Notes under the pieces: model-generated | What the model saw: only the letters and a program-made list of their open reading frames with translations | What the model was told of the DNA's origin: nothing | Databases searched by the model: none | Source of the DNA: a virus | DNA length: 34,344 nt | Virus record (IMG/VR): IMGVR_UViG_3300025901_000007 | Span: 1 to 34,344 of that record | Direction: 5' to 3' (one strand) | In this document: piece by piece, positions 66 through 25,602 of the stretch | Layout: every line of letters begins with the position of its first letter | Numbering within the stretch: the stretch's first letter is position 1 | Translations under genes and position numbers: made by a program

Positions 66-476
66 ATGTCAATCTCAGAAGCGTCTGAGACGTCACTGGC
101 CGCCGCGCCGCTCACTCCGCGTGATCAGGCTGCCGCCGCCCTGGTGCGCCGTTACGCACAGTTAATTGATCACGCTCAGTCACTGGCCGAGGAAGCCGAG
201 ATCGTGTGGGGCGAATTGGATCCGGAGGATGCGGACGGCCGGCGACGCCTGGTCAAGCTGGAAGCCGCGGTCGCCGCACAGAGCGTGACCGGTGATCTGG
301 GGCCTAAGCTGCTGGCAGCATTGACATCGCTCGGTTGCACGTTGGCCGGACGCGCCGTGAAGGGTGGAGAGCCGAACCGTGCAGCCGATCCGGCACTTGC
401 CGCTCACGACGAACTCAAGGCCAAGCGCGCTGCTCGGCTGCACGTCTCCCCGACTGTGGACGCCACCTCTCCGTGA
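66..476 (+). CDS. Terminase small subunit (probable)
   Basis: 136 aa. Probably the DNA-recognition subunit of the packaging motor; assigned mainly because it lies directly upstream of, and overlaps, an unmistakable large terminase at the left end of the structural operon. The protein is short, acidic and helical, with a basic stretch near the C-terminus (DELKAKRAARLH). I see no clear helix-turn-helix. ATG 66 is preceded by GGGAAG (55-60) at 5-nt spacing, a good ribosome binding site. The 65 nt before it show no convincing -35/-10 pair, so the late promoter is unidentified or lies beyond the window end. Function is inferred from context and size. Confidence 0.75.
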   Translation: MSISEASETSLAAAPLTPRDQAAAALVRRYAQLIDHAQSLAEEAEIVWGELDPEDADGRRRLVKLEAAVAAQSVTGDLGPKLLAALTSLGCTLAGRAVKGGEPNRAADPALAAHDELKAKRAARLHVSPTVDATSP

Positions 477-1977
477 GTTGACTCCGGCGAGTTCGGTCGG
501 GTTTGACCAGGCCGAGTACGCCGCGCGGTCCCTTGGTCGTCCGATGCTGCCCTGGCAGGAATTCGCCCTTCAGCACGGTGGCGAATTGCTGCCGGACGGG
601 CGGCCGCGCTTCCGGATCGTCCTGGTGATCGTGGCCCGGCAGAACGGCAAAACGGAAATACCGGTTGTTCTCGCCCCATATTGGATGCTGGTGGACGAGT
701 ACCCGCTGGTGCTCGGCACCTCCACCAAGCTCGAATACGCGAAAGACACCTGGGACAAGACGCGACATCTCCTGCGCCGCTCGCCGCTGGTCGCCCTTAT
801 GGGCAAGCCGCGGTGGTTCGTTCGCGGGAACAACTTGACCGATATGTGGTCAGAGGATGAGGCCGCCCACTACCGGATCGCCGCGGCGAACGAGGAAGGC
901 GGGCGGTCGCTGACCATCGACCGCGCGGTAGCGGACGAGTTGCGCCAGCATCACGACTACTCCGCCTGGAACGCCATGGACCCGGCGGCCAGCAACGAGG
1001 GTTCGCAGATCTGGGCATTGAGCAACGCGGGCGACGATAAGAGCATCGTCCTCAACGACCTGCGTGCCGCCGCTCTCGACTACATCAAATGGGTGGAACA
1101 GGTGGGCGCCGAGAACGCCGCGCACCTGATTGAGGCCGGCGAGTGTCCACACGACTGGCGTCTCGGGCTGATGGAATGGTCGGCGCCGGAGGATGCCGAT
1201 CCGGAGGACGTGGACGCGCTGCTCCAGGCCAACCCGCGGGTCGGTTACGGGCGCAATCTTGAGGATCTGTTGCTCGAAGCCAGGCGCGCGAAAGCCAAGG
1301 GTGGCGACTCGCTGGCCGGGTTCAAGACCGAGAAGATGTGTATCCGGGTTCCCCGCTTGGCGCCGGCTATCGACCTGACCGCGTGGCGCGCCGGCAAGCA
1401 ACCGGACACGATGACCGCGGTCCGGCACCGCGCCGTGATGTGCGTGGACGTCTCGCTCGACGGGAAGCACGCTACCGCGGTGGTTGCCGCCACCTTGCCG
1501 GACGGACGGGTGCGGGTGGAGGCGGTCGCCGCGTGGGACTCCGCGTTTGCGATGCAGGTCGACCTACCCGATCTGGTGGACAGGGTCAAGCCACGCGCCG
1601 TCGGTTGGTTCCCTAACGGGCCGGCGGCCGCGGCCGCCGCGGCGCTGGCCGATCGGAACAAACAGGGTGAGGCACGCCGGTCCTGGCCGCCCCGGTCGGT
1701 GACGGTGGAGGCGATCAGTCAGGAGATGGCCGCGGTCTGCATGGGTCTGGCCAAGGACGTCCTGGCCGGGCAGGTCCTGCATTCGGGTGATCCTCTGCTG
1801 GACGATCAGGTGGCCGGCGCCGAGAAGCACGAGCGTCCGTCCGGTACGTGGGTGTATGCACGGGGGGATGAGGGCCACGTGGACGCCGTGTACGCGATGG
1901 CGGGCGCGGTGCATCTGGCCAGGACGCTGCCGGCTCCGGTTGGCGGCCTACGTCTGATCGGACCGTCGTCCAGTTAG
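379..1977 (+). CDS. Terminase large subunit
   Basis: 532 aa with both activities of a packaging motor. The N-terminal ATPase has a phage-type Walker A (ARQNGKT, residues 86-92) and a Walker B-like VADEL (about 184-188). The C-terminal RNase H-like nuclease starts at MCVDVS (Asp357). The N-terminal PRLWTPPLRELTP is typical of actinophage large terminases and lies upstream of the small-subunit stop, so the gene must overlap its neighbour by about 100 nt. GTG 379 is chosen because GGAGAG (366-371) sits 7 nt before it; GTG 364 in the same frame has its purine run too close. Belongs to the HK97-like terminase family. The protein docks on the portal to translocate DNA. Confidence 0.93.
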   Translation: MQPIRHLPLTTNSRPSALLGCTSPRLWTPPLRELTPASSVGFDQAEYAARSLGRPMLPWQEFALQHGGELLPDGRPRFRIVLVIVARQNGKTEIPVVLAPYWMLVDEYPLVLGTSTKLEYAKDTWDKTRHLLRRSPLVALMGKPRWFVRGNNLTDMWSEDEAAHYRIAAANEEGGRSLTIDRAVADELRQHHDYSAWNAMDPAASNEGSQIWALSNAGDDKSIVLNDLRAAALDYIKWVEQVGAENAAHLIEAGECPHDWRLGLMEWSAPEDADPEDVDALLQANPRVGYGRNLEDLLLEARRAKAKGGDSLAGFKTEKMCIRVPRLAPAIDLTAWRAGKQPDTMTAVRHRAVMCVDVSLDGKHATAVVAATLPDGRVRVEAVAAWDSAFAMQVDLPDLVDRVKPRAVGWFPNGPAAAAAAALADRNKQGEARRSWPPRSVTVEAISQEMAAVCMGLAKDVLAGQVLHSGDPLLDDQVAGAEKHERPSGTWVYARGDEGHVDAVYAMAGAVHLARTLPAPVGGLRLIGPSSS

Positions 1978-2003
1978 GGGCCTGACCTGTTACCCTGCGC
2001 AGT

Positions 2004-5000
2004 GTGGGGATGATCCGGAAAGCATGGTCGGCGCTGACCGGTGCCCCCGTGCGCCAGCAGTTCGCCGCGGAGACCCCGCCTCGTCCGATCGCTGAGCTTC
2101 TGCTCCAGATGTCCGGCGCCGGACTGCTCCCCAGGGTCGGCCGGGCGGAAGCCCTCTCGGTCGCACCCGTACTGCGGGCGCGCAATCTCATCTGTTCGAT
2201 CGCCACGCTTCCGTTGATCCAGTTCGATTTGGACTGGAATCGGGAGCGTTTGCCGCTTTTGGAGCAGATCGACCCGGATGTGCCCAATGTGGTCACATTG
2301 GCGCAAACGGTAGAGGATCTCCTGTTCGAGGGCATCTCGTGGTGGGAAATCACCGCGTGGGATTCGGCGGACTATCCCGTTTACGCCCGACATCTGGATC
2401 ACTCCAGTGTGAGCCTGCAACCGCCCGGCGGCCGCACCCCCGCGTACCTGCCGGGCGGCTACGACCCACGCGGTGCTGTGATCTACTTCGACGGCCGACC
2501 GATCCCGGCGAAACGTGTGATCCGGTTCGACTCGCCGAACCCTGGTCTACTGACTGCCGCTGGCCGTGCGATTCGTAGCGCTGTACTGCTGGACACCACG
2601 TCGGCGCTGTACGCGGACAATCCGCGGCCGCTGGATTTCTTCAGTCCTTCCGAGGGCGCCGATCCGGCTGACGATAAGGTCATCGAACAGCTGCTCAACG
2701 ATTGGGCTGCGTGGCGTAAGAAGCGGGTCACCGGCTACGTGCCGGCCGCGGTCAAGTACAACACCGTGGATGTGCCGACTCCGGCCGAAATGCAACTGGC
2801 TGAACAGCAGAAACAGGCGCACCTCGCAATCGCCAATGCGGCCGGTATCGATCCGGAAGACCTCGGTATCTCTACCACCAGTCGGACCTATCAGAACGGC
2901 GTGGACCGACGCCAGGACCGGATCAACGACACGCTTAGTCCGTACATGGCCGCGATCACTGACCGGCTGTCCATGCCGGATGTGACCAGGCGTGGGCGCA
3001 GGGTTCATTTTGATCTTGATGATTACCTGCGTGCCGACCCCAAGACACGCGCCGAGGTGTATTCGTTGGCCAAACTGGCCGGTTGGTTGCACCCGGACGA
3101 GATGCGCACGGAAGAACGGTTGCCCCCGTTGACGGAGATGCAGAAACTGGATCTTGCCCCGCCGGCCCCACCGGAACCGGTCCGTTCCGAGTCCGTGCCG
3201 GTGCAGGCCGGCGCGGACGATCATCTACATCTGTCGTTCGACACGCCGGCCGCCACGTTCACCGTGGATGCCGAACGCCGGATCATCGAGGGCACGGTGG
3301 TCCCGTACGGGCGCGATGCGATCGCCATCAAAAACGGGCGCCGCTGGCGTTTCCAGCGCGGTTCCTTGGTGTTCGCCGAGATCTCGCGCGTCAAGCTGCT
3401 CCGCGACCACGACAATGCACAGCCCCAAGGGCCGATGATCCACGCCGAGGACGGGCCGGACGGCATGTTCGCCCGCTTCCGGGTGGGCCGCGGTCCGGAT
3501 GGCGATCGCACCCTGGCGGAAGCGCAGGACCAGGTGCGCGATGGGTTCAGCGTAGGGGTGGACATCCATACCTACTCCCCGGATCCGCTGAACCCGGGCG
3601 TACAGCTTGTGGCCGTGGGCGGCGCCGATTGGTACGAAACGAGCGTGCTGGCGCTTCCAGCGTTCACCGGTGCGCGCGTCACGCGCGTGGCCGCAACCCG
3701 AGACACCGAAAGGCAGACCGTGGCTGACACCGACACCACGACGGACGCCACGGAGACCGTGGCCCCCGTCAGTGCCCCGCCCGCCCCGCCCGTGCAACTC
3801 ACCAATGATCAACTGCAAGGTCTGCTCGCCGTGCCCGGCGTGCTGCAGGCCATGGCTGGTGTACCGGCGGTCAATGCGCAGCCCGCGCAGTCTCAAGCCG
3901 CCGCGTTCTCGCTGACGCAGGAACAGATCGGCGCCATCCTGGCCACTCCCAACGGGCGTAACGCCCTGCTCGGGCTCGGCGCGCCGGCCGAACAGCGGCC
4001 CACGGTGGACCCGACCCGGCCACAGGGTGGCACGCAGGTACGCGAGCCGGCGCCGTACCGGTTCGATCGGAAGGGCAATCTCACCAAGGGCACGCACGAC
4101 TTCTCGCAGGACATGATCAAAGGTTTGCGGGACGGGGACCGCGAGGCGCTGAACCGCGCCGAAACGTTCGTACGCCAGCAGTTCGCACAGTTCGACACCG
4201 ACATGGCCGACGTGCCGGCGCTCAATCCGTCGATCAACCGGCCGGACATGTACGTAGATCAAAAGGACTACAAGACGCCCCTGTGGGACGCGGTGAGCAA
4301 AGGCACGCTTGCCGACATGACGCCGTTCGTGCTCCCCAAGTTCAACACTTCATCCGGCATGGTCGCCGCGCACGCCGAAGGTGTGGAACCGTCGCTCGGC
4401 GTATTCACCGCGACCGCGCAGACGATCACCCCCTCGGCCGTGTCGGGGAAGGTCAGCATCACGCGTGAGGCGTGGGACCAGGGCGGCAACCCGCAACTGT
4501 CCGGGCTCATCTGGAAGCAGATGACCCGGGCGTGGTTCGAGGCGCTCGAAGCGTCGGTGGTGACGCTACTGGAAGCTGCCGCTCCCACCACGATCACCAT
4601 CCCCCCCGCGGCGCAGGATGACACGCTGGTCAGTTACGTCGAGGCGGCGCTGGCTGGGCTCCAGTTCGTGCGCGGCGGCTTCCGGATGCAGGACGCATTC
4701 GCGCAGGTCGATCTCTACCAGGCACTGATCGGTGCCACGGACGCGGACGGTCGGAAGCTTCTGCCGATCCTCGGTCCGACCAACGCCGCCGGCCGCGCCA
4801 CCTCGCTGTACGGCAGCGTGGAGACCGGTGGACTCGCGTGGCAGCCGACCTGGGCACTCGCCGCGTCCGGCACCGTCTCGGCGAATTCGTACCTGTTCGA
4901 CCGGGCGGACGTGTCCGGATGGGCTACCGCGCCGCAGCGGCTCACCTTCGACCAGGTGGAAGTGAGATACATTCACGTCGGCATCTGGGGGTACAAAGCT

Positions 5001-5054
5001 CTCGCGATAACGGACCTGACCGGCGTCCGGCGTTTCGCGTACGACCCCGCCTAG
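2004..5054 (+). CDS. Portal - prohead protease - major capsid protein triple fusion
   Basis: 1016 codons without a stop, covering three normally separate head genes. Residues about 1-390 are an HK97-type portal (DNA entry ring, docking the terminase). Residues about 405-570 are a prohead protease of the S78 type, with the His motif LLRDHDN (His469) and catalytic DGFSVG (Ser516). Residues about 690-1016 are an HK97-fold capsid protein, after a Gln/Ala-rich delta-like segment (about 595-690). The stoichiometries needed (about 12 portals to hundreds of capsomers) conflict with a single polyprotein, so internal initiation or proteolysis is expected; see the internal site at 3708. GTG 2004 (or ATG 2010) lacks a clear Shine-Dalgarno. 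A TACCCT hexamer (1991-1996) 7 nt before GTG 2004 could give a leaderless mRNA. Confidence 0.9.
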   Translation: MGMIRKAWSALTGAPVRQQFAAETPPRPIAELLLQMSGAGLLPRVGRAEALSVAPVLRARNLICSIATLPLIQFDLDWNRERLPLLEQIDPDVPNVVTLAQTVEDLLFEGISWWEITAWDSADYPVYARHLDHSSVSLQPPGGRTPAYLPGGYDPRGAVIYFDGRPIPAKRVIRFDSPNPGLLTAAGRAIRSAVLLDTTSALYADNPRPLDFFSPSEGADPADDKVIEQLLNDWAAWRKKRVTGYVPAAVKYNTVDVPTPAEMQLAEQQKQAHLAIANAAGIDPEDLGISTTSRTYQNGVDRRQDRINDTLSPYMAAITDRLSMPDVTRRGRRVHFDLDDYLRADPKTRAEVYSLAKLAGWLHPDEMRTEERLPPLTEMQKLDLAPPAPPEPVRSESVPVQAGADDHLHLSFDTPAATFTVDAERRIIEGTVVPYGRDAIAIKNGRRWRFQRGSLVFAEISRVKLLRDHDNAQPQGPMIHAEDGPDGMFARFRVGRGPDGDRTLAEAQDQVRDGFSVGVDIHTYSPDPLNPGVQLVAVGGADWYETSVLALPAFTGARVTRVAATRDTERQTVADTDTTTDATETVAPVSAPPAPPVQLTNDQLQGLLAVPGVLQAMAGVPAVNAQPAQSQAAAFSLTQEQIGAILATPNGRNALLGLGAPAEQRPTVDPTRPQGGTQVREPAPYRFDRKGNLTKGTHDFSQDMIKGLRDGDREALNRAETFVRQQFAQFDTDMADVPALNPSINRPDMYVDQKDYKTPLWDAVSKGTLADMTPFVLPKFNTSSGMVAAHAEGVEPSLGVFTATAQTITPSAVSGKVSITREAWDQGGNPQLSGLIWKQMTRAWFEALEASVVTLLEAAAPTTITIPPAAQDDTLVSYVEAALAGLQFVRGGFRMQDAFAQVDLYQALIGATDADGRKLLPILGPTNAAGRATSLYGSVETGGLAWQPTWALAASGTVSANSYLFDRADVSGWATAPQRLTFDQVEVRYIHVGIWGYKALAITDLTGVRRFAYDPA
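3708..3722 (+). promoter_or_regulatory. Internal ribosome binding site and GTG start for stand-alone capsid protein
   Basis: GAAAGG (3708-3713) lies 6 nt before GTG 3720, in frame with the fusion gene (codon 573). Initiation here would make a 444-aa protein beginning VADTDTTTD, i.e. delta-like region plus complete capsid domain, just after the protease domain ends. The placement at the domain boundary is what makes it credible; use is inferred. Confidence 0.55.
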
Positions 5055-5090
5055 TACCTGTCCTATGTGGACGGATGAGAAAGAGGGATC

Positions 5091-5444
5091 ATGGAACAGC
5101 AGATCTACATCAGCGCCGCACGTACCGCCACTCCTACCGCTGTCGAGGTGAACACGCGGCGTTTCCGGTCGATGGTGATCGTGCTCGACGCCACGGCCAT
5201 CACGTCCACCCCGTCGGTCACGATCGCGCTGGACCGCAAGGACAACGCGTCCGGTAAGTACATCAACATCCTCACATCGGCGGCCATCGCGACTGTGTCC
5301 ACCAACACGATCAGGATCGGTCTCGGCCTGCCGGTTACCGCGAACGTCTCCGCGAACGAGCCACTGCCGAACGTGGTTAGGGTGACCATCACGCACGGCA
5401 ACGCGAACTCGATCACCTACACCGTGTCCGCACACCTGAACTGA
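5091..5444 (+). CDS. Small beta-rich head-region protein of unknown function
   Basis: 117 aa, preceded by a purine-rich GAGGG at good spacing before ATG 5091. The sequence is rich in Thr, Val, Ile and Ser with alternating hydrophobic residues, suggesting a beta-sandwich. It lies between the capsid gene and the head-tail connector, a slot often used for capsid decoration (cement) or head-fibre proteins. That role is a positional inference; no diagnostic motif is visible. The motif pattern (SMVIVLDATAI, ITHGNANSITYTVS) resembles a second beta-rich protein at 7173-7685, although the two are not obviously homologous along their length. Confidence 0.7.
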   Translation: MEQQIYISAARTATPTAVEVNTRRFRSMVIVLDATAITSTPSVTIALDRKDNASGKYINILTSAAIATVSTNTIRIGLGLPVTANVSANEPLPNVVRVTITHGNANSITYTVSAHLN

Positions 5445-5450
5445 GGGATC

Positions 5451-5804
5451 ATGGCTACTGCGAAGAAACCCACCCCGCCGGAGTCGGACGTCTTGAAGGA
5501 TGCGGACGGCAACCCGATCGACCCGCAGGAAGGCGGCGTCACCCCGCCAGACCTGGACGCGCCCACGACCCTGCCCGGGCCGGAGCCGTACGAGGCACCC
5601 AAGGACAAGGGCAAGGCGGTCACCATGGCCGACGTCGCTTCGCTGCAGGGCATCGGCATCGCGCCGGACGAGCCGGACGTGCAATTGGCCACGGTGGACG
5701 ATCCGGACGTGTTCGTCTCGGCCGGCATGGCGTCCGATCTGGAACAGCAGGGGTGGGCACTCGATCCGATCACCGGTCGTCGGGTCGAACGGGACAAGGA
5801 CTAG
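5451..5804 (+). CDS. Acidic, proline-rich protein of unknown function in the head operon
   Basis: 117 aa, strongly acidic, with a low-complexity N-terminal half (Pro, Asp, Lys) likely to be disordered and a more ordered C-terminal third (VFVSAGMASDLEQQGWALD). ATG 5451 follows GAGGGATC, nearly identical to the preceding gene's ribosome binding site. The segment KAVTMADVASLQGIGI is the only region with an ordered look. Position suggests a head or neck accessory protein; I do not recognise the family. Confidence 0.65.
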   Translation: MATAKKPTPPESDVLKDADGNPIDPQEGGVTPPDLDAPTTLPGPEPYEAPKDKGKAVTMADVASLQGIGIAPDEPDVQLATVDDPDVFVSAGMASDLEQQGWALDPITGRRVERDKD

Positions 5805-13784: not shown

Positions 13785-14303
13785 GTGGCCACCACCGCGA
13801 ACCGCGCGTACCGATACCCGCAGAGCACCGACGATGTCCGCCCGTACGAGGACATCCAGTTCCTCGCCACGGACGTGGACACGGACGTGCAGGCGTTGTA
13901 CGCGGCCGCGTGGGTGGCGTTCAACTCGCCTACGCTCGTGTGGTCCGCGAACACCACAGCGCCCGCGCTCGGCAATGGGACCCTGCTCGGTCGGTACCAG
14001 CTACAGGGCAATAAGGGCATCCGCTTCCAGGGGCGGTTGACCATCGGCACAACTTCAACGTTCGGTACCGGTTTCTGGATCTTCAATGTGCCATTCAGCG
14101 CAACGGCTGACTCGATCCTCTATTGCGTGGGTACGCACCGGATGGATGACGTGAGTGTCCAGTCGCGTCCTGGCACCTGTCGGTTTTTCACGGCATCCCA
14201 GCTGGTACTGGACAACTCCGGCGGCGTCGTGGCCGGTAACTCACCGGTGGTCCCGGCCAGCACGGACGCCTACACGTGGGACATCACCTACGAGAGGGTC
14301 TAG
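13785..14303 (+). CDS. Minor tail / tail tip protein
   Basis: 172 aa from GTG 13785. It begins with an actinophage tail pattern: RYPQSTDDVRPYEDIQFLA and TDVDTDVQAL, a short N-terminal attachment segment that recurs in proteins next to endolysin genes. The rest is beta-rich with few charged residues, a fibre or tip domain. No Shine-Dalgarno precedes GTG 13785, but TAGGAT (13773-13778) lies exactly 6 nt before it, so a leaderless transcript is possible. With one such hexamer expected by chance among genes of this size set, that is only a weak hint. Confidence 0.6.
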   Translation: MATTANRAYRYPQSTDDVRPYEDIQFLATDVDTDVQALYAAAWVAFNSPTLVWSANTTAPALGNGTLLGRYQLQGNKGIRFQGRLTIGTTSTFGTGFWIFNVPFSATADSILYCVGTHRMDDVSVQSRPGTCRFFTASQLVLDNSGGVVAGNSPVVPASTDAYTWDITYERV

Positions 14304-19068: not shown

Positions 19069-19113
19069 AGCCGTGATTCTATGCCTACAACGTGGTCTTG
19101 GTACGCTTTTACC
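19069..19113. promoter_or_regulatory. Divergent leaderless promoter pair
   Basis: The 45 bp between ATG 19068 (-) and ATG 19114 (+) hold two -10 hexamers: TAGAAT on the - strand (19076-19081, 7 nt from its ATG) and TACGCT on the + strand (19102-19107, exactly 6 nt from its ATG). Between them lies ACAACGTGGTCTTGGTAC, a rearranged version of the AACGTGG and TTGGTA parts of the phage promoter motif. Both transcripts would be leaderless and compete for one regulatory segment. Confidence 0.55.
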
Positions 19114-20781
19114 ATGCATGTTGCACATGTTGCCTGGCGCTACCTGGTGACCGGGCGCCCACTGTGGGGGCCCGGTGACAATGCGACCTTCCTGCATGAC
19201 GCCACCGTGGACTACCGTGGCGGACCGGTCGAACGGCTCACCCACGCACGGTGGCGCCGGGTACTCCGCCGGCACGCCGCGCTCACCGCGCCCACCCTGC
19301 TCGCCTGTTACGACCGGCAGGCAGCCATCGTCTATGCCAGCCTAATGATCACAGCCGGTCTCACGGTCGCCGTGTTGGCGCTGGTCGATTGGTGGCCGCA
19401 GCGTCAGGTCCGCCGGGAGTACGTCTACCCCACCTGGACCGTGGTGGCAAAGGTGATCGGCCAGCCCGCGCGGCGCCGGGACGCGGTGCGCGCCATCGCG
19501 CTGCCGGCCGGCTTCGGCACTGAGGACGTGACCGACGAGGAACTGTCCGTCCGGATCCACCTTCCGGTGGTGGCGCTGGACGAGGGGACGCGCAGGCGGA
19601 TCGCGGACGCGGCCGGACAGCGTCTCGGCATTCCGGACCCATCCGCATCGTGGGTGGTGCGTGGCACGTCCGCCCACGTGGACCTGAGTCCGCGCGCGTC
19701 CGTCCCCCGCGTCCTGCGGTTCGCGGACGTGCGTACGTACTGGACGGACGCGTCCGCCACGCGTCCGTTCGTGGGGATGGGACCGAAGCGGCAACCCGTC
19801 CACGCGGACCTCGACAACGACGGTCCGCACATTGGCATCAGCGGCGGGACGGGGACCGGCAAGTCCACCCTGCTCCGGATCATCCTGGCCAAGCGGGCGG
19901 CGTCCGGCGCCGGCATCGTGGTCTGCGACTACAAGGTCAACAGCCACCCGTTCCTGCGCCGCCTCGCCCGCGAACATCCCGACCGGGCGGTCTACGCGGT
20001 GGACGAGGAACCCATCAGCGAAGCCATCCTCGCCGTGTTCGGCGAGTTCCAGCGGCGCCGCGAATTGCTCAAGACGGATCCGGACGCACTGATGGACTGC
20101 CGGCCCATCGACCTGGTCATCGAAGAACTGAACAGCCTCGCCGAACGGTTGACGAAGTGGTGGGGCCACGAGCGGCGGCGCATTCTGGCTGAAGCCAAAG
20201 CACTGGACGAGGACACGCCTTACGTTCCGGTTGTCCCGCCGTGCGTGGACGCGATGGCCGCACTCGTCCAGATGGGACGTGAGCTACTCGTCCGCGTCCA
20301 CTTCGCGGCGCAGCGGCTGGATGCTGCCGTCCTCTCGCCGCGCAACGGGGGTGCGGTACGGGAGTCGATCACGAACCGGTTCCTCGCGAAGTACACCAAA
20401 AAGACGTGGGCGATGCTGGCCGCGGGCGTCCCCTACCAGGCGTTCCCGGGCGGACCGCGAGGCATCTGGACCGCGGTCGTGGGCGACGAGGTCACGCACT
20501 TCCGGGTGCCACCGATGACCGATGACGAGGCGTACACGCTGGCGCTGTCCGGACCGGTACCGAACGGACCGGTCATCGGAGCCGGGCGGTGGGTACCGGA
20601 GAAGGTGGCGCTGGTGACGCTCGGTGAGGCATGGGAGTTGGTCGGCGCGCCGTCGCTGGATGCGCTGAGGTGGCTGGTGCGCGACCGGAAGCTGGTGGCC
20701 GCCGGGCGCAAGGGCAACGCGCACCTCTACGACATGGCCGACCTGGTGCACCTGTACCGGTCCCTCGCAGCAAAGCCGTAA
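19114..20781 (+). CDS. Membrane-anchored FtsK/TraB-like DNA translocase
   Basis: 555 aa. One membrane helix at about 78-98 (SLMITAGLTVAVLALVDWW). The motor domain follows: Walker A GGTGTGKST (244-252), CDYKVNSHPF, and Walker B DLVIEELNSL (about 333-342). The C-terminal about 55 residues (LGEAWELVGAPSLDALRWLV, then KGNAHLYDMADLVHLY) look like a winged-helix DNA-binding domain, like the gamma domain that orients FtsK. Related FtsK/SpoIIIE proteins move double-stranded DNA between mycelial cells in actinomycete conjugative elements (TraB/TraSA). In a phage it might resolve or translocate an extrachromosomal genome. ATG 19114 is chosen for its leaderless spacing. The gene ends at the terminator at 20793. 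Confidence 0.85.
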   Translation: MHVAHVAWRYLVTGRPLWGPGDNATFLHDATVDYRGGPVERLTHARWRRVLRRHAALTAPTLLACYDRQAAIVYASLMITAGLTVAVLALVDWWPQRQVRREYVYPTWTVVAKVIGQPARRRDAVRAIALPAGFGTEDVTDEELSVRIHLPVVALDEGTRRRIADAAGQRLGIPDPSASWVVRGTSAHVDLSPRASVPRVLRFADVRTYWTDASATRPFVGMGPKRQPVHADLDNDGPHIGISGGTGTGKSTLLRIILAKRAASGAGIVVCDYKVNSHPFLRRLAREHPDRAVYAVDEEPISEAILAVFGEFQRRRELLKTDPDALMDCRPIDLVIEELNSLAERLTKWWGHERRRILAEAKALDEDTPYVPVVPPCVDAMAALVQMGRELLVRVHFAAQRLDAAVLSPRNGGAVRESITNRFLAKYTKKTWAMLAAGVPYQAFPGGPRGIWTAVVGDEVTHFRVPPMTDDEAYTLALSGPVPNGPVIGAGRWVPEKVALVTLGEAWELVGAPSLDALRWLVRDRKLVAAGRKGNAHLYDMADLVHLYRSLAAKP

Positions 20782-21008: not shown

Positions 21009-21856
21009 GCCATTGCCTCCTGGATGCGCTGGATGTGTGCGAGCGAGCACGGCACCCGGGTCGCCGTGGACTGGACGTCCATCCCCTCGCGCAGGAACCG
21101 GACGGCGCGCCGGCAGAGCTGGAGCGGCTTCGCGCCGACGGACGTGGCGGCCATGACGTCCTCGCTGGACGCGCCCGCCAGGATCATGGCAACCGCTTTC
21201 TCCACGTCCCAGGACGTGTGCCGGCTGGACGGACGGACTGGACGGACAGACGTGGACTCGATCGCCGGTATGTCCACGTCCGGCGTCCGTCCGTGGTACC
21301 CGTCCCATGCCTCGCGCGGATCGGTTACGTTGTGGTCGATGCTCCAGCGGTACGCCTTGAGGCTGCGGATCGGGAATGCCCGCTTCCGCGCGGTGGAGAA
21401 CTCGGCGCCCGCGTCGTCCACCCGGCGCTCTTTCAGCAACTGGATGCGCGCCATCCGCCGGGAGTGCAGGCCCCACATCCACGGCGAGAGCAGCGAGAGC
21501 ATCCCGAACGCGATCGCCGCTGCCGTGGGCGCCATGCCGGTGGCTGCGAAGTGCGAGTAGTTCATCGCGCCGACCGCGGCCGCGATCAGGAAGGACCACC
21601 TACGCAAGCTACGCGCTGTGCTGTGGCTACGGAGTTGGAGCGCGTCATGCGCATGCCACTGCACGTACAGGCTCACACTCTCGATCGCCACCGCGAATCC
21701 GACGGACAGCGCCAGCCGCGACGGCCACCACCAGTCGGCCGGTGCGATCTCGGCCATGGCGTAGGCCAGCTGCCCGTACACGGTCAGCGCGTTGACCACG
21801 AGCAAGGGCGCGACCGCCCGTGCGATCGCGCCCTTGTGGTTGTCCGTCTCAGTCAT
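21005..21856 (-). CDS. Four-helix membrane protein, DUF2637-like, with C-terminal HTH-like tail
   Basis: 283 aa from leaderless-type ATG 21856. Four hydrophobic segments at about 15-37 (APLLVVNALTVYGQLAYAMA), 46-67, 87-105 and 112-131, then a cytoplasmic tail with a possible helix-turn-helix (EKAVAMILAGASSEDVMAATS, about 225-245). The topology and motif spacing resemble DUF2637 proteins, which in actinomycete integrative elements and plasmids sit beside FtsK/TraB transfer genes. Here it is likewise separated from the FtsK-like gene only by a small gene and a terminator, in convergent orientation. A joint role in DNA movement across membranes is inferred; family membership is likely, not certain. 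Confidence 0.6.
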   Translation of the reverse strand: MTETDNHKGAIARAVAPLLVVNALTVYGQLAYAMAEIAPADWWWPSRLALSVGFAVAIESVSLYVQWHAHDALQLRSHSTARSLRRWSFLIAAAVGAMNYSHFAATGMAPTAAAIAFGMLSLLSPWMWGLHSRRMARIQLLKERRVDDAGAEFSTARKRAFPIRSLKAYRWSIDHNVTDPREAWDGYHGRTPDVDIPAIESTSVRPVRPSSRHTSWDVEKAVAMILAGASSEDVMAATSVGAKPLQLCRRAVRFLREGMDVQSTATRVPCSLAHIQRIQEAMA

Positions 21857-25466: not shown

Positions 25467-25530
25467 GCTGCCGTGCTACTCGCGCTTCCGGCGTGGAACC
25501 AGGTTGCGGCGCCGCGAAACGCCGCACCCG

Positions 25531-25602
25531 TGCCCCGGTCCGGGATCGAACCGTACCCATCCACCCGTCCCATGGGTGGTGCTCCCGTTGAGCTACCGGG
25601 GC
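25531..25602 (-). tRNA. tRNA-Pro (anticodon GGG), probable
   Basis: 72 nt. Acceptor GCCCCGG pairs perfectly with CCGGGGC; D stem GCTC/GAGC with a short 5-nt loop; anticodon stem CACCC/GGGTG with loop ATGGGAC (U33, anticodon GGG, A37); T loop TTCGATC on a stem TACGG/CCGGA with one mismatch. CCA is not encoded. The short D loop and the mismatch lower certainty. It is transcribed from the promoter at 25649-25670. Confidence 0.65.

Follow-up and report, generated by a model that had tools for sequence, protein, structure and literature searches.

How tailed phages equip every shell with exactly one portal, and with enough protease, has long been asked of head assembly, and the question is raised again by a locus in which the portal, the prohead protease and the major capsid protein share a single reading frame. 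The window analyzed here is the whole of IMG/VR record IMGVR_UViG_3300025901_000007 (34,344 bases, 66% G+C). A head needs capsid subunits by the hundred but only about 12 portals and few proteases, and the original prediction made from this DNA rightly saw a fixed 1:1:1 ratio as a problem for stoichiometry. We consider it likely that the locus is one gene with two translation starts on one mRNA, probably followed by self-cleavage. A leaderless-type start at the 5' end, together with a conserved internal start, suggests that a single mRNA probably gives both the polyprotein and the capsid protein alone. The head components are covalently linked at birth, yet the capsid seems to be made separately too, which hints at a physical route of delivery and at a ratio set by translation. 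Feature coordinates are collected in Table 1.

The window frame encodes an HK97-type portal, an S78-type protease and an HK97-fold capsid protein; the claim that all three lie within 1016 codons was borne out by the stop-free frame and by domain matches. For the portal, Pfam Phage_portal (PF04860) matched residues 85-370 (E = 4e-22, 79.3 bits, curated cut-off 39.1) and a PHROG portal profile residues 101-381 (E = 1.7e-24). The protease is the weakest of the three assignments in the window itself: PHROG 80 (head maturation protease) matched residues 417-565 (E = 1.6e-6) and NCBIfam TIGR01543 (HK97 prohead protease) residues 459-562 (E = 8e-7, 29.2 bits, below the curated 59), and the Pfam model PF04586 gave no window match at E = 0.001, its cut-off (21) being passed by relatives L004, L006, L007, L008 and L009. 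PHROG 2263 ('major head protein') matched residues 401-1009 (E = 4.3e-33). The AlphaFold2 model of the whole protein (predicted local distance difference test, pLDDT, 70.7; predicted template modeling score 0.38) consisted of folded modules, with low confidence in the connecting stretches 386-414 and, for the most part, 552-635 (numbered from ATG 2010), and Foldseek matched it to HK97-family portals (3kdr, E = 1.7e-17; 8fql, E = 1.2e-14) and also to HK97 capsid chains. The capsid part modeled alone (pLDDT 74.3) had a long spine helix at 258-287 and an N-terminal scaffold region, both named by eye, and matched HK97 1ohg (E = 4.8e-12), one of 382 PDB matches with E no higher than 0.001. The capsid had been placed from residue 690 onward; the assignment stood but its boundary was refined, with a predicted separate product starting at residue 573 and about 90 scaffold-like residues preceding the HK97 fold.

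Relatives were collected by an IMG/VR scan with a 7-sequence alignment, from which the best 80 of 175 were taken, and by a GTDB genome scan, which turned up 16 loci, the genomes belonging to Micromonospora, Salinispora, Amycolatopsis, Prauserella, Streptomyces, Kribbella, Jiangella, Asanoa, Saccharomonospora and an actinomycete metagenome-assembled genome. All three domains lay in one stop-free frame at 100 of the 105 loci with domain hits (duplicates, the window and the KylieMac control counted); the remaining five were KylieMac itself, a two-gene control, three loci cut by contig ends (L010, L088, L105) and one that is truly split (L008). Removal of identical proteins and three same-contig duplicates left 87 distinct frames (76 viral contigs, 10 genome loci and the window), which were 38-96% identical to the window and formed 80 clusters at 90% identity and 61 at 70%. 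Among 397 genomes of the actinobacterial order to which the host of L091 belongs, 29 had any match and 7 carried the triple frame, with 978-1135 codons between stops. Because the query was itself fused and only the top hits were kept, these counts establish a common fusion but give no measure of its share among all portals. The triple fusion is widespread in actinobacterial viruses and prophages, and it is present in sequenced strains (Micromonospora, Salinispora, Kribbella, Amycolatopsis and others), for instance Micromonospora chokoriensis (L102) and Kribbella jiaozuonensis (L099). Metagenome assemblies may hold errors, and the stops between three genes could in principle have been erased by sequencing or assembly, but nothing specific pointing to this was found. 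Comparison with relatives, proposed at the outset as a guard against frameshift errors, showed the frame open in independent contigs and bacterial genomes across the full range of identity, and the number of independent occurrences rules out an artefact. As a separate observation, the genome of Micromonospora mirobrigensis holds two different triple-fusion loci (L091 and L106).

The capsid protein is probably made separately, and in larger amounts, from a start inside the frame. All 87 distinct frames contain an in-frame start codon, ATG in 73 and GTG in 14, that has a Shine-Dalgarno match of 4 or more nucleotides and lies 11-20 codons past the last conserved motif of the protease. Synonymous codon shuffles that kept protein and codon usage, and that count related sequences as independent, gave 48.2 ± 3.0 such frames (maximum 57 in 100 shuffles); for matches of at least 5 nucleotides the values were 70 observed and 24.9 ± 3.2 shuffled (maximum 34). 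Since the shuffles still give 48.2, part of the start signal is carried by the amino acids, and much of it goes beyond them. When the whole frame was scanned, such a start lay within 3 codons of residue 570 in 84 of 87 sequences, the next best position reaching 42. The suggestion that different products could be made is thus strongly supported by this start and by the leaderless-type start described below. The same internal start was found at the protease-capsid boundary in five of seven two-gene or split relatives examined (KylieMac, Penoan, Rhysand, SallySpecial and the split L008), and Schiebs and a Corynebacterium element had candidates at other positions. Its occurrence in KylieMac, Penoan, Rhysand and SallySpecial means that the internal start is probably older than the portal fusion; accordingly, many named phages may make two products from what is called a 'protease-capsid fusion' gene.

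Two further observations concern this boundary. In genes annotated as 'major capsid and protease fusion' (L012 (4170), L119, L120 and L123), an in-frame Shine-Dalgarno and ATG were seen at the protease-capsid boundary, and no separate capsid product was annotated in the records opened. In agreement with an internal start, a CxxC motif lay within 8 residues after the start codon in 43 of the 87 frames and in none in the stretch just upstream; at the start of the capsid product of L005, L007, L014, L022 and others further His or Cys residues mostly came after it, and it was absent from the window. The scaffold N-terminus may there form a small zinc-binding element.

The mRNA of the polyprotein is probably leaderless. 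Among the 80 sequences whose 5' end is covered, the window included, 63 had TANNNT 6-8 nucleotides before the start codon of the frame, at spacings of 6 (29), 7 (30) or 8 nucleotides (4) and ahead of ATG (35) or GTG (28). The same pattern preceded 6 of 5198 in-frame internal starts and none of the 87 internal capsid starts, which puts the chance expectation at about 0.3 loci. The best Shine-Dalgarno match per locus averaged 3.1 nucleotides near the portal start vs. 5.2 at the capsid start (n = 80). According to excerpts of PMC3160421, leaderless genes in Actinobacteria are marked by TANNNT some 12 bp ahead of the start codon, and the window shows that arrangement without a Shine-Dalgarno; the spacing of its -10 box matches that of leaderless actinobacterial genes in the portions available of PMC3160421 and PMC3898074. 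Translation in mycobacteria requires no more than ATG or GTG at +1 (PMC4633059, in extract). Operator-like dyads before the -10 box were in weak excess (mean arm 4.97 vs. 4.10 shuffled; arm of at least 7 in 7 of 63), with none notable in the window. Elsewhere in the window, candidate leaderless genes with TANNNT 6-7 nucleotides upstream and frames of 131-555 codons were noted at 13785, 19114 and 32731 (+) and at 21856 and 21599 (-); about 1% of all ATG and GTG in the window have TANNNT at that distance.

Release of the parts would fall to the protease. In the window its residues are His469 (3408-3410), Ser516 (3549-3551) and a possible third, Glu545 (3636-3638); the His and Ser we take to be catalytic, by assignment from HK97 gp4. 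The Ser was found in 87 of 87 frames and the His, within 466-472 to allow for alignment slips, likewise in 87 of 87. Five of the 87 frames seemed to lack the catalytic His; this proved to be a one-residue misalignment, the His being adjacent. Because both active-site residues are kept throughout, cleavage of the polyprotein by its own S78-type protease is plausible.

The link between portal and protease is a spacer of 32-69 residues, about 25% identical and in frame in all 87. That it stays in frame despite varied length and low identity indicates that the link is translated and kept. Starts with a Shine-Dalgarno of at least 4 nucleotides were not in excess at this junction (48 of 87 vs. 46.7 ± 3.3 shuffled), and those with 5 nucleotides were marginally so (35 of 87 vs. 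28.2 ± 3.2). A general second internal start at the junction was not supported by the 4-nucleotide counts. By eye, strong junction starts were seen in L061, L066, L072, L076, L095 and others, and none in the window or in L002. Without a start signal of its own, the window protease would be made only in step with the portal. At the split locus L008 the portal frame (908-3781) continues into a long insert, in which an ADP-ribosyltransferase domain was recognized (PF03496, E = 1.3e-13), and then a stop, and the protease-capsid gene starts with its own Shine-Dalgarno; the insert was apparently placed at the portal-protease junction, splitting a triple fusion. L124 is the same contig as L008, and L125, a near relative with a long portal frame (1079 residues), is also an exception. 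All remaining relatives of the L008 portal with at least 44% identity have the triple frame, except L126, which is cut by a contig end after portal and protease; this makes the split look secondary.

From these features the following scheme is proposed. A promoter whose -10 box lies 7 nucleotides before the portal start would yield an mRNA beginning at that codon or 1-2 bases from it, and ribosomes loading at this leaderless 5' end would produce the portal-protease-scaffold-capsid polyprotein in modest quantity. Ribosomes entering at the AAAGG and GTG 3720, a conserved site, would make the 444-residue scaffold-capsid protein alone and in excess. The protease, with its active-site residues retained and flexible linkers on both sides, could then free itself and the portal and trim the capsid N-terminus. 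The link itself may keep protease and portal in step, or bring both to the shell. Two starts on a single frame would in this way meet the unequal need for the three proteins.

Several points weigh against this two-start reading. In addition to the counting of related sequences as independent in the shuffle control, the internal start of the window is a GTG with a moderate 5-nucleotide match, weaker than in many relatives. A strict TANNNT at the right spacing was absent from 17 of the 80 covered sequences (several with near-matches by eye, uncounted). A -35 consensus was not found (TTGACA with at least 5 of 6 positions in 3 of 63 vs. 1.5 shuffled), and a sigma-70 scan of window positions 1800-5500, which requires a -35 hexamer, gave no promoter; the -35 consensus is likewise described as absent from M. 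tuberculosis promoters in the consulted part of PMC3898074. Glu545 is not universal (69 of 87). Finally, some capsid may also come from a promoter of the ordinary leadered type within the protease region.

This last possibility, taken as a full alternative in which an extra promoter in the protease region produces a capsid mRNA and the internal Shine-Dalgarno serves this mRNA instead of the long one, is quite unlikely. Late phage genes can have several promoters and the scan used would miss those with a -10 box only, but TANNNT at leaderless spacing preceded none of the 87 internal starts and no promoter-like match was seen in 1800-5500. The fusion could instead be a by-product of compaction, in which the stop of the portal gene was lost once and the result tolerated, with portal and protease folding side by side and the link having no role. 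The 4-nucleotide overlap of the two genes in KylieMac, Penoan and Rhysand means that one frameshift and a stop loss would fuse them, and the 5-nucleotide junction starts of some lineages fit such a history. A spacer kept in frame in all 87 sequences at such varied length and low identity suggests, on the contrary, selection to keep the link, and the 4-nucleotide junction starts show no excess, with none in the window; we regard this explanation as unlikely. Very unlikely, in our judgment, is that the full frame is the sole product and is cut into equal amounts of portal, protease and capsid, the surplus portal and protease being degraded or left over. The absence of any stop, the flexible linkers at both junctions and the universal active-site His and Ser would all suit it, but the Shine-Dalgarno and start at the protease-capsid junction, present in every frame and far above shuffles, would then lack a purpose, and hundreds of portals per virion would be wasteful.

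The two-start reading has a possible extension. Retroviral Gag and Gag-Pol are scarce enzyme-bearing and abundant structural products of one message, and their link can carry the enzyme into the particle. The present locus resembles them in pairing a scarce enzyme-bearing with an abundant structural product; it differs in that their ratio is set by frameshift or readthrough rather than by two initiation modes, and there is no homology. By analogy, and tentatively, a rare leaderless chimera might co-assemble with abundant capsid, its capsid domain carrying the covalently attached portal and protease into the growing shell and perhaps nucleating the portal vertex before the protease separates portal and capsid, with the portal:capsid ratio arising from two kinds of initiation on one mRNA.

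The closest known systems are small-genome actinophages: Arthrobacter cluster AN (KylieMac, Maggie), Microbacterium cluster EE (Rhysand, BurtonThePup), Penoan (Curtobacterium) and SallySpecial (Gordonia). They share with the window a homologous portal and S78-type protease, the order terminase-portal-protease-capsid and a single protease-scaffold-capsid gene (PMC5513430 and PMC7302621, as far as their available text goes). They differ in having a portal gene apart from the protease gene, which carries a Shine-Dalgarno of its own, whereas the window has one frame and no protease start signal was seen in it. The portal was separate in all known relatives opened (KylieMac, Penoan, Rhysand, Schiebs, SallySpecial and a Corynebacterium plasmid-phage), overlapping the protease-capsid gene by 4 nucleotides in KylieMac, Penoan and Rhysand and parted from it by lysis or other genes (lysis genes in SallySpecial) in Schiebs, SallySpecial and the Corynebacterium element. 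The original prediction had named two-way fusions as known in actinophages, and such protease-capsid or protease-scaffold-capsid genes are confirmed in print (extracts of PMC5513430, PMC13313380 and PMC7302621). The window frame is not one of them, as its portal is joined to the protease-capsid part. NCBIfam NF045541 (prohead protease/major capsid fusion) likewise has protease followed by capsid; it includes no portal and matched the window weakly and in part (23 bits vs. a cut-off of 525).

Three triple-frame queries against 50,697 phage records gave 81, 560 and 190 matching records, and in none did the match extend over 80% of the query; 4 plasmid records matched the triple frame, again none over 80%. 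Neither a portal-protease-capsid frame nor paired leaderless and internal starts was found in the literature searched, which excluded subscription papers and preprints, or in the annotated phage records opened. The protease-scaffold-capsid part is already known; the portal in the same frame, the wide conservation and the paired starts appear to be the new part. A nested internal start is also familiar from lambda C and Nu3, where an in-frame start inside the protease gene gives an abundant structural product. The product nested in this way in lambda comprises scaffold alone, and lambda has distinct genes for portal and capsid. An excerpt of PMC5513430 refers to the lambda protease-scaffold fusion.

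Table 1. Features at the portal-protease-capsid locus, in window coordinates.
Feature	Positions	Strand	Details
Terminase large subunit (upstream neighbor)	364..1977	+	PHROG 9, E = 1.7e-55; GTG-started open reading frame as listed
-10 box TACCCT (TANNNT) of predicted leaderless promoter	1991..1996	+	7 nucleotides before GTG 2004
Portal-protease-scaffold-capsid single frame	2004..5054	+	1016 codons, no stop; start GTG 2004, alternative ATG 2010
Portal domain	2136..3146	+	About residues 45-381; Pfam PF04860, PHROG 12, fold match 3kdr and 8fql
Portal-protease linker	3165..3251	+	Low-confidence in model, Pro/Ala-rich; in the window, no in-frame start preceded by 4 or more nucleotides of Shine-Dalgarno match
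S78-type prohead protease domain	3252..3698	+	About residues 417-566; PHROG 80, TIGR01543
Shine-Dalgarno match AAAGG	3709..3713	+	6 nucleotides before the internal start
Predicted internal start codon GTG	3720..3722	+	Residue 573; separately made scaffold-capsid protein, 444 residues
Scaffold/delta-like N-terminal region of capsid product	3720..3989	+	Residues 573-662; variable, mostly low pLDDT, short helices
HK97-fold major capsid domain	3990..5051	+	Residues 663-1016 (fold about 663-1011); PHROG 2263, Foldseek 1ohg

Away from the locus, an FtsK-like or terminase-like ATPase with weak PHROG matches, distinct from the terminase at 364-1977, was seen at 19081-20781 (+), and a tRNA-Pro (ggg) gene was located at 25530-25602 (-).

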